This document shows, piece after piece, positions 10,712 to 47,759 of a DNA stretch of 64,000 nucleotides. Made by a program: the position numbers and the translations under genes. The DNA comes from Leptolyngbya sp. FACHB-261. GTDB lineage: Bacteria > Cyanobacteriota > Cyanobacteriia > FACHB-261. The stretch spans positions 496,001 to 560,000 of the forward strand of contig NZ_JACJPL010000031.1 in NCBI RefSeq assembly GCF_014696065.1. Reading direction: 5' to 3'. The first letter of the stretch is position 1. Each line of letters begins with the position of its first letter. The notes below the pieces were generated by a model. That model did not search any database and was not told the origin of the DNA. It saw only the letters and a program-made list of their open reading frames with translations.

Positions 10712-11341
10712 TTAACGTTTGTTGTCAGCTACAGCAACGTAAGTCCCAAGCCCAATGAGGGACCAGCCTGTGAACAGCCGTTGTCTCCGTCTCAACTTCG
10801 CACTGGTTCGCAACCATTGGCCGATGGGGCTAGCCAGCAGCGCAACGCTAATATCTGCACTGGTATTCAGGGCCACTGAGATGCTGCCGAGCAACACAAA
10901 CTGGAGGATGACGATCCCTTGAGGATCAATAAACTGCGGGACGAAGGCCAGGAAGAACAGGGCAGTCTTGGGATTGAGCACTTCGGTAATGATGCCCTGA
11001 CGAAAGGCATTGCTGGCTGTGCTCACGGGAATGTCTGCCTCTAATTCGATCTCATTGTCACTGACCAAGGTGCGAATGCCCAAATAGATCAGGTAGGCTG
11101 CGCCAACGTATTTGACAATGGCGAAGGCAATCGAGGAGGTGGCTAGGATGGCCGAGAGCCCCAAAGCGGCAGCGATGACATGCACAAACCCGCCAACAGC
11201 AGTGCCAAATGACGAAGCCAAACCTTCTGCCCGTCCGCCCTTGAGACTTCGGGTTAAGACATAAAAGATGCCTGGACCGGGTGTAATCGCTAGCAAGACC
11301 GCGGCGGTCAGGAACAGTCCAAACATGGGCATTTCTGGCAT
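10712..11341 (-). CDS. LysE/RhtB-family amino acid exporter
   Basis: A 209-residue inner-membrane protein with about six hydrophobic segments. The family signature near the N-terminus is clear: LLAITPGPGIFYVLTRSLKGGRAEGLASSFGTAVG, followed by the central ITEVLNPKTALFFLAFVPQF block. By family knowledge it exports amino acids such as lysine, arginine, homoserine or threonine by proton antiport. Substrate cannot be predicted. The C-terminus is basic (KLRRRQRLF). It is a single gene, with a stretch of about 660 bp lacking other genes upstream. Confidence 0.9.
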   Translation of the reverse strand: MPEMPMFGLFLTAAVLLAITPGPGIFYVLTRSLKGGRAEGLASSFGTAVGGFVHVIAAALGLSAILATSSIAFAIVKYVGAAYLIYLGIRTLVSDNEIELEADIPVSTASNAFRQGIITEVLNPKTALFFLAFVPQFIDPQGIVILQFVLLGSISVALNTSADISVALLASPIGQWLRTSAKLRRRQRLFTGWSLIGLGTYVAVADNKR

Positions 11342-12000
11342 GGATATTTCCCTAAAGCTGGATAGCTACAGGTAACGATCGAGCCAAGCATAAGGTCTGT
11401 CAAGAGCCAATTTGTCTAGGCTCGGCAGTGCCACTTAGAGCGAGGTGAGGCAAGGTGTAGAACAAAGAGGTGCTCTACGTCCTAGGTTTTGGCAAGCGTC
11501 CTTCGCGCAGTACAAACACAGATAATCCTAAGGGTGTAAGCGGGCATTGGAAGACATTCCAGCAATAAATTCAGTGCTTAAGAAACAATCATAAAACTGT
11601 GGCAAACGACTTTAAGGCACAAGGCCTCGGCGGAATGCAGAAACGCTTCCCCTGAAAGCTCAACAGGGCAGCTTGAAAGCCTAGCGGCAGACTCTGGAAG
11701 CTGATCCGGGTAGCCTGGAAGCCTAACAGTGAACTCTGGAAGCTAATCTAGGCATCCTGAAAGCTTTGCAGTGAACTCTGGAAGCTCAAGAGCGAACTCT
11801 GGAAGCTTTGCAGCCAAGCCTGAATCGATCACTGCTGATATCGAATCAACAGAGCTTAAATGCTTTTTGTCTTTAGAATTGCTTAATAATCGAGCACTCA
11901 GCGGCTCCCCTGCTCGCTCTCAAGGCCAATCGCTCTCCTCCTATGAGTTCTGTCATAGGGGCTCCAATACAAGAACTGGGGCTTTTACCTACCGCTAGCT
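11342..12000. other. Long intergenic region holding a 21-bp repeat array
   Basis: These 659 bases lie upstream of the LysE-like gene and downstream of the cupin gene, both on the minus strand. The outstanding feature is the 21-bp array at 11652-11840. A reading frame at 11771-11998 is not accepted as a gene because it begins inside the array and has no recognisable sequence. Confidence 0.5.
11652..11840. repeat. Nine-unit degenerate 21-bp tandem repeat
   Basis: The core CTGGAAGCT (variants CTGAAAGCT, TTGAAAGCC, CTGGAAGCC, last unit CTGAATCGA) starts at 11652, 11673, 11694, 11715, 11736, 11757, 11778, 11799 and 11820, exactly 21 bases apart each time. The second half of the unit often reads CAGTGAACT. 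The spacing equals seven codons, and on the minus strand one frame reads SFQSSLL/GFQATRI-like heptads with a single TAG in the middle. No frame is open through all units on the plus strand. It may be a decayed coding repeat or a non-coding minisatellite. Confidence 0.85.
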
Positions 12001-12321
12001 TCAAGTGTGCAAAAAAGCGAGGTTGGTCGAAGCTTGTAGCGCGTGAGGTGTATTTGCAGGCATAAAGACAAACACGCCAGGTTCCAAAGTAACTTCCCGC
12101 CCTTCTAGCGTGAGAGTGCCTTGCCCTTCGATCACCGTAATCGAGACATCTCGAGTCGTTGCATGTTCGGCCAGTTCAGTCCCTGCTGTTACACAGATCA
12201 GCGCAAATTGGCTACCCTCAGTCTTAACCAAGGGGATTCTAGTAACCTTCGGCTTTGTATAATCAATCCGCTCATAGAGCTGAGCGGTGATTGCTGAATG
12301 AGGGGAGCGAGTGGTGACCAT
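12001..12321 (-). CDS. Cupin-domain protein
   Basis: A 106-residue single-domain cupin. Motif 1 is weak (GTELAEHATTRDVSITVIEGQGTLTLEG), with one histidine retained. Motif 2 is PGVFVFMPANTPHAL. Short cupins of this kind bind a metal or small ligand and often act with detoxification or redox enzymes. No reaction can be assigned. It lies at the distal end of a same-strand group: 160-residue unknown, zinc-ribbon protein, methyltransferase, then this gene, with a 45 bp gap after the methyltransferase. Divergent from the group is a Crp/Fnr-type regulator that may control it. Confidence 0.85.
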   Translation of the reverse strand: MVTTRSPHSAITAQLYERIDYTKPKVTRIPLVKTEGSQFALICVTAGTELAEHATTRDVSITVIEGQGTLTLEGREVTLEPGVFVFMPANTPHALQASTNLAFLHT

Positions 12322-25357: not shown

Positions 25358-25478
25358 ACCTCTTGCCTAACTTGCTTTACCTAATCTGCCTTACCTAATT
25401 TGCCTAAGGAGAGGAGCGCATATCTATTGAGGGAGGAAGATTCTACCTTATCCACAGGCGTAAATATTTCAATTGATT

Positions 25479-27450: not shown

Positions 27451-27544
27451 AGTTTTTGCTGTAGCCTTTTGAAGTTCTTTGTGCGTATTCTTTAGGCCGA
27501 CTCTTCGCACCTACTTCTATCGCGATAGTTCTAGCGCAATAGTT

Positions 27545-28714
27545 CTATCGCAATGGGCCGCCCAGAATCGTTTTGGCGATGGCCTGAGTTACCTCAATAG
27601 GGCTCTCTTGCCTGAGCTGTTCGTACCATTGCTGCGTCACTTCTGGTTCCTTTCCGTGGATCATTTCTGCGCGTCTACGGGCTTTGAGGACAATGGCATT
27701 GGCCCGCTCTTTGCGCTCGGCCTCGTAACGCTCTAGGGCATCTTCAACTCCTAGGTTTGTGCTTAGCAAATAGCGGGTCAGCACCTCGGCATCCTCCATT
27801 GCCTGACAACCGCCTTGTCCTAGGTCTGGAGCTGTAGCATGGCCAGAATCGCCGAGAAGTGCAACCCGACCGCGAACCAGGCGATCGAGTGGGCCTAAGT
27901 CATGGATCTCCAGCCGGTTAGTTTGGGTCGGCTCTAGTTGCTGAATCAGCATTTGCACCGGGCTAGGCCAGCCTGCAAAAAAATCAGCCAATTCGGTATG
28001 GATCTGCTCAGGCTGAGACCGAGTACCAACGGGCAGCGGCACATCAAAAAAGAAGTAGAATCGGTCGCCCCCGACAGGCATCAGGGAAGCCCGTTTGTGT
28101 TCCCCCACATAGACGACCCAGGTATTTCGGGGAATCAAAGTGTTGGTTGCCTGGACCAGGCCATTCCAGTTTACATAGCCAACATAACTGGGTTGAATTG
28201 GCTGAGTTTGCTGGCCCAGAACGTAGGGTCGAAGCGTGGAGTGAATGCCATCAGCAGCAATTAGAAGATCACCGGTTGCTTGATGCCCATCGGCAAAAAT
28301 AGCAGTGACACTTTCGCCTCGATCTTCAACACCAACACACTTGCAATCGAGTTTTACTGTCCCTGGAAATGCTCTTAAAAGCATTTGTTGTAAATCGGCG
28401 CGGGCAACTGGATAGGGGCGTTGTCCTACTGCCGTGATTAAGGGTTGCAGATCGATGTCGTTGAGCAGCTCATCCCTGTGGCCGCGGTACTGCATCCGAT
28501 CCATTTGCCCACCAATTTGAGCGATCTGATCGCCCAGACCTAACTTATTGAGGATTTTGACTCCATTCGACCAAAGTGAAATCCCTGCCCCTGCAGGTCG
28601 GAGTTCTTTGACTTTGTCGTAAATCTCTACCTCATAGCCTGCTTGCTGTAGAGCAATGCCTGCGGTTAAACCGCCAATGCCTGCCCCAATAATCACCGCC
28701 TTCAGGTTATACAA
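27545..28714 (-). CDS. hpxO: FAD-dependent urate hydroxylase, HpxO type
   Basis: A 389-residue flavin monooxygenase. The FAD-binding GAGIGG is at residues 10-15, the DG motif is LLIAADGIHSTLRP and the second FAD motif is VALLGDSGHATAPDLGQGG. Several blocks match Klebsiella HpxO closely, including VGYVNWNGLV, GEHKRASLMPVGGDRFYFFFDVPLP, IHDLGPLDRLVRGRVALLGD and KARRRAEMIHGKEP. It should oxidise urate to 5-hydroxyisourate using NAD(P)H and oxygen, replacing classical uricase. The neighbouring hiuH supports this. It lies 36 bp after the allophanate-hydrolase-related gene. Confidence 0.9.
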   Translation of the reverse strand: MYNLKAVIIGAGIGGLTAGIALQQAGYEVEIYDKVKELRPAGAGISLWSNGVKILNKLGLGDQIAQIGGQMDRMQYRGHRDELLNDIDLQPLITAVGQRPYPVARADLQQMLLRAFPGTVKLDCKCVGVEDRGESVTAIFADGHQATGDLLIAADGIHSTLRPYVLGQQTQPIQPSYVGYVNWNGLVQATNTLIPRNTWVVYVGEHKRASLMPVGGDRFYFFFDVPLPVGTRSQPEQIHTELADFFAGWPSPVQMLIQQLEPTQTNRLEIHDLGPLDRLVRGRVALLGDSGHATAPDLGQGGCQAMEDAEVLTRYLLSTNLGVEDALERYEAERKERANAIVLKARRRAEMIHGKEPEVTQQWYEQLRQESPIEVTQAIAKTILGGPLR

Positions 28715-46328: not shown

Positions 46329-47759
46329 TTACGTCAATTCTGTCGTAGTCGTTCCGTCCTGTGCTTGGGCCTGTGCTTGAGCGGCTTTTGGGGTCGCCTC
46401 TCGGCTGACCTCTGTGGGTGCCGCCTCAAAGTCGAAGCGGATCAGAATTGCAGTGAGATTGTCATGACCGTTATGCTCGTTCCCTAACGCTAACAGCTGC
46501 GCGATGCCTGTCTCCAGATCAGCCTGAGTCGACAAAAGCGGTAGCAAGCTGCTCTGCACATAAGCTTCAATCAAGCCATTGTCACTGAGGCCATCGGAGC
46601 ACAACAGCAATAAAGTTGGCTCTGAGATCTCTAAAAACTGGACTGAAGGTTCAACTGCTTCATCAGCTCGTGGACCCAAAGCTTGGGTCAACTGATAAGC
46701 TTCGGGATGCGCATAGGCAACGTTAGGGGGTAACCCCTCATCTATATTTTGCTGTCCCACTTCGTGGTCGCGGGTGATTTGCGTCAAGCCCTGGTGAGTC
46801 AGACGATAGAGGCGGCTATCACCAACATGCGCAATCGCAACTCGATGGTTATGAACCACTGCCATTACTAGCGTGGTGCCCATGCGACTACTGCCCACCC
46901 GTCCGCTTTCAGCGGGGGGCAGACCCGTAGCGGAACTGCTTTGCCCACCCTCGTTAGCAGAGAAGATGGCTTCATTGGCAGCCCAGACTGCTTTCTTTAG
47001 AGTCAACTCGCCGGGCAATTCAAGGTTGTTCCAGAAGGGCTGAAAGTAATCGCGCAAGGTTTCAACCGCCATCGCACTAGCGACTTCTCCAGCAGCGTGG
47101 CCTCCCATGCCATCACAGAGCACGTATAACCCTCGCGCTGACTCTAGTTGCTTGCCCTCGGGCGTCAGCGCTGTGCTGATTTGAGTCTGAACGTAGAAGG
47201 TGTCTTCGTTGTGATCCCGTCTATGGCCTACATCGGTACCAGCAGCTTGATGCAGCGCGATTAGACGGCGAGCAGAGGTAGGGTGAGGGGATGGTTTGAT
47301 GGTTGGGGTTGCCCCAGCCGAATTTTCTGCACCTGCTGGTTCTGCTGGGAGAGGGGGCTCAGGTAAAGGCTCAGTGATAAGCTCATCAGCTGGAGTCACC
47401 GTTGCTCCAACGGCTGATTCAACAGGCGCTCCAAGGGGGAGGGGCCCTGACGCTATTAGTGGGTCAATGCCTGTTTGCTCGATGCCGAGTTGCTCGGTAC
47501 TCAGTTGCTCAGTAATTGGTTGCTCAGTGATTGATTGCTCGGTACCGAGCCGCTCGACACTTATTTGCTGAATAACTGCTTGCTCGACACCCCCAGGGAC
47601 TTCAGGTGTTGCTGGGGGTGTCTCGGTTGGTAGCGATTCAGTGCCAACCCCTACTAACCCAGATTGGCTTGGGGCTGGTTGGGCTAGGGCCATGCCGCAG
47701 TTCTGGCAGAAGCGATTGGCAACTGGGTTGCTGTAGCCGCATTGAGGACAGTCAATCAT
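46329..47759 (-). CDS. PP2C-type protein phosphatase with N-terminal zinc ribbon
   Basis: A 476-residue protein. The N-terminus has a zinc ribbon CPQCGYSNPVANRFCQNCG, then a low-complexity linker with pentapeptide EQxxx repeats (about residues 55-90) and a Pro/Glu-rich stretch. The PP2C domain starts about residue 170: TDVGHRRDHNEDTF, LYVLCDGMGGHAAGEVAS with its metal-binding aspartates, VAIAHVGDSRLYRL and LLLCSDGLSDNG. It should dephosphorylate Ser/Thr residues using Mn or Mg. It lies directly after the zinc-ribbon/FHA gene with 1 bp between, and before the FHA-kinase, its natural counterpart. Confidence 0.93.
   Translation of the reverse strand: MIDCPQCGYSNPVANRFCQNCGMALAQPAPSQSGLVGVGTESLPTETPPATPEVPGGVEQAVIQQISVERLGTEQSITEQPITEQLSTEQLGIEQTGIDPLIASGPLPLGAPVESAVGATVTPADELITEPLPEPPLPAEPAGAENSAGATPTIKPSPHPTSARRLIALHQAAGTDVGHRRDHNEDTFYVQTQISTALTPEGKQLESARGLYVLCDGMGGHAAGEVASAMAVETLRDYFQPFWNNLELPGELTLKKAVWAANEAIFSANEGGQSSSATGLPPAESGRVGSSRMGTTLVMAVVHNHRVAIAHVGDSRLYRLTHQGLTQITRDHEVGQQNIDEGLPPNVAYAHPEAYQLTQALGPRADEAVEPSVQFLEISEPTLLLLCSDGLSDNGLIEAYVQSSLLPLLSTQADLETGIAQLLALGNEHNGHDNLTAILIRFDFEAAPTEVSREATPKAAQAQAQAQDGTTTTELT
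47475..47594. repeat. 15-bp tandem repeat within the PP2C linker
   Basis: The core TTGCTC (variants CCGCTC and TTGCTG) recurs every 15 bases at 47475, 47490, 47505, 47520, 47535, 47550, 47565 and 47580. On the coding strand it gives a pentapeptide series such as EQSIT, EQPIT, EQLST, EQLGI. It is in frame, so copy changes would alter only the linker length. Confidence 0.85.

Follow-up and report, generated by a model that had tools for sequence, protein, structure and literature searches.

A solo array of degenerate 21-bp repeats in a cyanobacterial chromosome and its relation to arrays upstream of a small basic protein family

Why does a gap between two genes hold a repeat whose sequence drifts from unit to unit while its spacing stays at exactly 21 bp? 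The question is raised by a locus of Leptolyngbya sp. FACHB-261. The window analysed is a stretch of 64,000 nucleotides (G000:C31:496001-560000) of the 6.95-Mb genome, and positions given without a contig are those of the window. A LysE-type translocator gene (10712-11341, minus strand) and a gene for a small cupin protein (12001-12321, minus strand) are separated by an intergenic gap of 659 bp, measured from the start of the former to the end of the latter. The array lies in this gap, 310 bp upstream of the start of the LysE-type gene, and the 3' end of the cupin gene points toward it.

The array occupies 11652-11819 on the plus strand and keeps the exact 21-bp spacing over eight consecutive units, with the family consensus CTGGAAGCTTAACAGCGAACT, in which positions 2-3 are invariant. 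The core CTGGAAGCT is exact in four of the eight units, and the remaining units differ from it by 1-3 bases. When as many as three mismatches are allowed, the window has six occurrences of the pair pattern CTGGAAGCT-N12-CTGGAAGCT, all within the array, while 100 shuffles gave a mean of 0.15; the repeat array reported in an earlier note on this DNA is thus borne out. The nine units counted there are slightly generous, as the ninth in-register position (11820) retains only CTGAA. A degenerate 3' tail beginning with CTGAATCGA follows on the plus strand (11820-11889). It is common to the tail of one sibling array (C22), with a likeness that extends to about 11889, and in part to that of another (C26). 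A higher-order 42-bp pattern is also present in the array. A CRISPR array was ruled out, since the 21-bp unit is a degenerate motif without unique spacers; cas genes were judged solely by reading the ORFs around the array. Short tandem repeats are found elsewhere in the window at 25362-25405 (14 bp), 27515-27554 (14 bp) and 47489-47544 (15 bp).

A search with a 63-nt model of the window array gave strong matches at five loci of the genome only, the window array itself (C31:507652), C26:842806, C15:93301, C31:409342 and C22:220864, which are called type A. When the 44 units of the five arrays are pooled, CTGnAAGCY...CAR is kept and the other columns drift. The column dispersion is 7.7 times binomial: deviations from the majority number 0 at positions 2 and 3, 2 at positions 6 and 13 and 4 at positions 1 and 7, and positions 4, 9, 10, 12, 16, 17 and 18 deviate in 20-24 of the 44 units. 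Unit identity is 0.626 within arrays and 0.594 between them, and no strongly standing-out diagonal was seen when unit order was compared between the arrays (best 0.61-0.71). The near-equal identities, the invariant columns and the lack of a clear unit order suggest that the motif is kept unit by unit. The sole break of register among the type A arrays is a 1-bp insertion in C15. Dyad symmetry in the pooled units is only modest (P=0.039).

The type A array at C31:409342 precedes a 129-aa gene (C31:409645) by 160 bp, and this gene belongs to a family of small basic proteins of about 130 aa, named X here. The X consensus starts with MxRxKRxSxxLEKAERR and has YGKDSxEYEMAGGVRKSERKRP near its end; an alignment of the family took in 30 of 43 X proteins. 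The mean pI is 9.6, and the net charge is about +4.6 over the first 20 residues and +3.9 over the 30 residues past the YGKDS motif (42 of the 43 proteins, as L165 has no usable start). The middle of the protein is probably helical. The X protein of C31:409645 has no match in Pfam, and the matches that it and two homologues gave in NCBIfam, PHROGs and PADLOC all stayed below threshold (E 0.009-0.08). No known DNA-binding domain was matched in family libraries or solved structures, the latter giving just weak coiled-coil or chance matches. There are 12 copies of X in this genome, and of the 388 class genomes 79 have the family, which is roughly one in five of the cyanobacteria sampled. It was found neither in phages nor in viral_contigs; a single plasmid record, Kovacikia minuta pA (L194), has a copy of X, and a 42/84-bp array is located upstream of it at about 307-478 bp. 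A 515-aa gene, labelled TIR-like from a reading of its sequence, is divergent from X at C31:407500-411500 (L032 198-1745), and the type A array lies between the two.

Is the neighbourhood of X and a 21-bp array a general one? This was addressed with 43 X loci, which comprise the best locus of each of 30 genomes (one being this genome), 11 further copies from this genome, and L126 and L129, both reached through their arrays. In the 600 bp upstream of these loci the mean identity is 0.366 at lag 21 and 0.36 at lag 42, whereas other lags give about 0.25. Among lags 15-27, lag 21 ranks first upstream of 38 of the 43 loci and downstream of 9. Under a strict test, in which a lag-21 segment must exceed all 60 shuffles, such a segment lies upstream of X at 34 of 43 loci (31 of 40 when the three that were found by way of arrays are set aside) and downstream at 3 of 43; ten other lags gave 0-4 of 43 upstream, and the same lag-21 test on the window genes gave 3 of 44, with the window array as one of the three. 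The segments mostly stop 135-260 bp before X. Some X-linked arrays have periods of 62, 63, 83, 84, 105 or 147, which are near multiples of 21 and not always multiples of 3, and 63- or 83-bp periods also occur at some of the nine loci without a significant lag-21 segment. Dyad symmetry reaches p<0.05 in only 7 of 34 X-linked arrays.

The array is shared by X orthologues together with the gene. Comparison of 684 cross-family X pairs, with L165 left out, showed that 11 of the 14 pairs with an identity of at least 0.75 share the upstream array, all in the sense orientation, and that none of the 14 shares downstream sequence. No pair below 0.75 reaches the threshold for array sharing. In the best cross-family pairs the common block spans the start of the array to the stop codon of X and the flanks are unrelated; one such block between two families is 83.5% identical over 776 bp. 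X pairs inside one family can have a longer shared stretch. Paralogue pairs of this genome share no array (0 of 56), so that the unit sequence tracks X orthologues across families and differs between paralogues. The array and X thus form a cassette of about 0.8 kb in which the array diverges with X, and in many cyanobacteria an array of this period is a regular component of it.

A scan of other genomes' contigs with the exact pattern gave two matches, both isolated sites without an array, and viral_contigs gave none; the 38 other genomes drawn as relatives were no closer than the same class. The pair pattern is matched in 43 of the 388 class genomes, including this one, and the matches listed, assessed from the matched strings alone, lack the type A linker and often resemble coding repeats. 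A model of the repeat (R1) matched 8 of the 388 genomes at E<=1e-4, including this one. Array-like intergenic matches outside this genome were found only in G102 and G070, and those in G021, G117, G222, G225 and G226 were read as coding or single matches. X homologues lie downstream of arrays in G102, where one array is 460 bp upstream of X and two of identical unit type lie elsewhere, and in G072, a genome from a 96-genome scan that has a homogeneous 21-bp array inside an open frame upstream of X. The flanks of the two solo arrays of G102 (L193, L127; another genus) are conserved, and one of them adjoins a 42-bp repeat with GTTACTCAATAA-like palindromes.

Siblings of X-linked arrays were sought in this genome for 3 of the 12 X copies, and all three have them elsewhere. 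Those of the type A array C31:409342 are C26, C22, the window array and C15. The type B array C2:65794 has one sibling (C28:96612-96813, 88% identical), with a weak match at C2:88627 (E 0.007) left out of the counts, and the type C array C27:10904 has three (C31:786843, C27:929538 and C1:203895, 80-87% identical). Five of these eight siblings (C26, C22, C28, C31:786843 and C27:929538) are located upstream, at no more than 1 kb, of a gene from a second family, Y; judged from its sequence, the small Y protein resembles a winged helix. About 21 copies of Y were counted here, whereas 290 other genomes of the class gave none; a 21-bp array lies upstream in 4 of the first 16 copies, and at C31:238 kb an array is located between divergent X and Y genes. 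Most Y copies are preceded by another small gene, Z. These loci of adjacent small genes are L195-L210, L176, L178, L232, L233 and C27:62582-63369, and a stretch of about 300 bp upstream of Z/Y is conserved at 70-88% in most copies. The other three siblings, including the window array, have neither X nor Y nearby, and no X, Y or Z gene was found anywhere in the window. Arrays of this kind normally sit immediately upstream of X; the window array is one that stands alone.

An unselected 400 kb of contig C27, chosen without regard to arrays except for the known X there, contains seven strong segments at lag 21 and seven at lag 12, while every remaining lag in the range 12-45 has 0-3. Those at lag 21 include one X array and two segments inside genes. 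Two others are long intergenic arrays without X, 171405-171605 and 317854-318074, the second of which adjoins a Z gene, and the remaining two are shorter, one with a 22/43-bp period. The presence of 21-bp arrays without a nearby X suggests that they are a wider feature than X alone.

The reading that we favour, and hold with moderate confidence, is that the window array is a stand-alone row of degenerate protein-binding sites spaced two helical turns apart and probably recognised by a cognate X protein. Of the origins raised in the earlier note, an array of sites for a DNA-binding protein is the best supported, by the motif-like conservation, the period of two helical turns and the association with a family of small basic proteins. 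With a site every 21 bp, the bound proteins would line up along one face of the DNA, and a conserved motif with free linkers, a small basic protein and the co-diversification of the two argue for DNA recognition. X, or a partner made with X, would bind its own array cooperatively, regulate itself and also act on distant arrays that share its type. In this scheme the window array would be one of the distant targets, with an effect on the LysE-type gene or on the architecture of the surrounding DNA. The LysE-type gene is a candidate target of regulation; no match to a sigma-70 promoter was found between it and the array. A promoter role has its counterpoint in the solo arrays C15 and C27:171405, which sit between convergent gene ends and are thus unlikely to control promoters. 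Further points against the favoured reading are that X matches no known DNA-binding domain, that nine of the 43 X loci show no significant lag-21 segment, that dyad symmetry is weak, and that 21-bp arrays in the 400-kb sample can lack a neighbouring X.

It is also possible, although unlikely, that the arrays are non-functional minisatellites, formed by slippage with a bias to 21 bp and decaying neutrally, and that the linkage to X reflects transfer as a common cassette. The copy number is variable, the similarity at lag 2 (42 bp) suggests block duplication, solo arrays are found in many contexts, and LTRR-type repeats are known from cyanobacteria (PMC2408588). However, invariant columns stand next to nearly random ones, the array is retained with X orthologues across families when the downstream flanks are lost, and the unit sequence changes while the period stays at 21.

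Somewhat more doubtful is a role in RNA, in which the array would form the leader of X or Y mRNA and be bound there by the basic X protein. The position of the array about 135-400 bp upstream of X, its constant orientation among orthologues and the basic termini of X are compatible with this. Sibling arrays fold better than shuffles (z of -5.4 for C22, -3.2 for C26 and -2.8 for C15), and 12 of 26 X-linked arrays have a z below -2 in the sense direction. However, antisense folding is equally good, with 10 of 26 below -2 and no strand preference over the 26 arrays (Wilcoxon p=0.99), and the window array folds no better than its shuffles (z of -0.37 and -0.80 on the two strands). Rfam gave no match at E<=1 for 11342-12000, and some solo arrays lie between convergent genes. 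The suggestion that the array is part of an RNA therefore fares poorly. Compensatory pairing between neighbouring units, inspected by eye, was not upheld.

A further reading, which we regard as rather improbable, is that the arrays serve a mobile cassette (array and X, or Z-Y) as its recognition part, and that each solo array is the footprint of a copy that was lost or is non-autonomous. The flanks are unrelated across families, X is multicopy, Y was seen in about 21 copies here but in none of 290 other genomes, and the tail of the window array is similar to the tails of Y-linked arrays. Against this, neither X nor Y is recognised as a transposase or recombinase, an unsystematic look found no terminal repeats or target duplications, and the arrays of paralogues are unrelated, which copies of a single element would not be. 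The cassette may well have spread by transposition, and this is compatible with a binding role.

That the array is the relic of a heptapeptide-repeat protein gene, as the earlier note had proposed, is very improbable: a period of 21 suits heptapeptide coding, and the sibling arrays C26, C31b and C22 each have at least one open frame, but the window array has stops in all six frames (4, 4 and 3 on the plus strand; 1, 4 and 1 on the minus strand, in agreement with the interrupted frames and the minus-strand frame with one stop described before), as one of two such arrays among the five of type A, the 44 type A units show neither codon-phase bias (P=0.91) nor a heptad phase (P=0.58), related arrays have frame-breaking periods of 62, 83, 20 and 41 bp, and C15 carries its 1-bp insertion. 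The array therefore does not qualify as a heptad-repeat coding sequence, which would have an open frame under codon-phase constraint.

If the arrays are protein-binding sites, a more specific proposal can be made tentatively, as a possibility short of probable: each X paralogue would have upstream an array phased at 21 bp whose sequence is private to it, and a remote array, before Y or solo as in the window, would respond to a paralogue only if it had the sequence of that paralogue's array. Such an address system would provide up to a dozen orthogonal channels per chromosome; the helix would fix the period, and the sequence could diversify freely.

How do these arrays compare with known systems? 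The iteron arrays of plasmid origins are direct repeats of about 17-22 bp with helical phasing that lie beside the gene of their binding protein, with further solo arrays elsewhere. The likeness is in the 21-bp direct repeats beside X at 34 of 43 loci, with putative binding by X, and in the solo arrays. However, the window array has no X nearby, the arrays are chromosomal and degenerate, there are 12 X paralogues, most with arrays of their own sequence, and X matches no Rep family in Pfam, NCBIfam or PHROGs. In PMC7250471 a BvgA-type promoter is described with six weak degenerate dimer sites at 22-bp spacing on one helix face. Both cases have degenerate sites two helical turns apart, although here the sites are predicted and the spacing is compatible with such an arrangement; BvgA is another protein with fewer sites, whereas the present arrays have a spacing of 21 bp and are found at places other than promoters as well. 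STRR are dispersed tandem repeats in the intergenic DNA of cyanobacteria. LTRR are described likewise, as dispersed tandem repeats of cyanobacterial intergenic regions, in PMC2408588. The arrays resemble both in being dispersed tandem repeats between cyanobacterial genes, but their period is fixed, their sequence varies by locus and they are linked to one gene family. Membership was rejected, as LTRR and STRR have one fixed repeat sequence and none of the 56 own-genome pairs shares units.

In the open-access literature no description was found of a 21-bp cyanobacterial repeat family or of a cassette of array and X. An apparently meaningless degenerate repeat thereby becomes one element of a widespread cassette, in which an unannotated protein family is tied to arrays with conserved spacing and unconserved sequence. 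If X binds its array, the family would be a supply of orthogonal DNA-binding pairs, and some of the repeats in cyanobacterial intergenic DNA would have an explanation. Near two of the solo arrays, C15 and C1, there are small HTH-type genes (L031 730-1080 and L234 1798-2034, respectively) whose products share a similar ending, ELPDxFGP.
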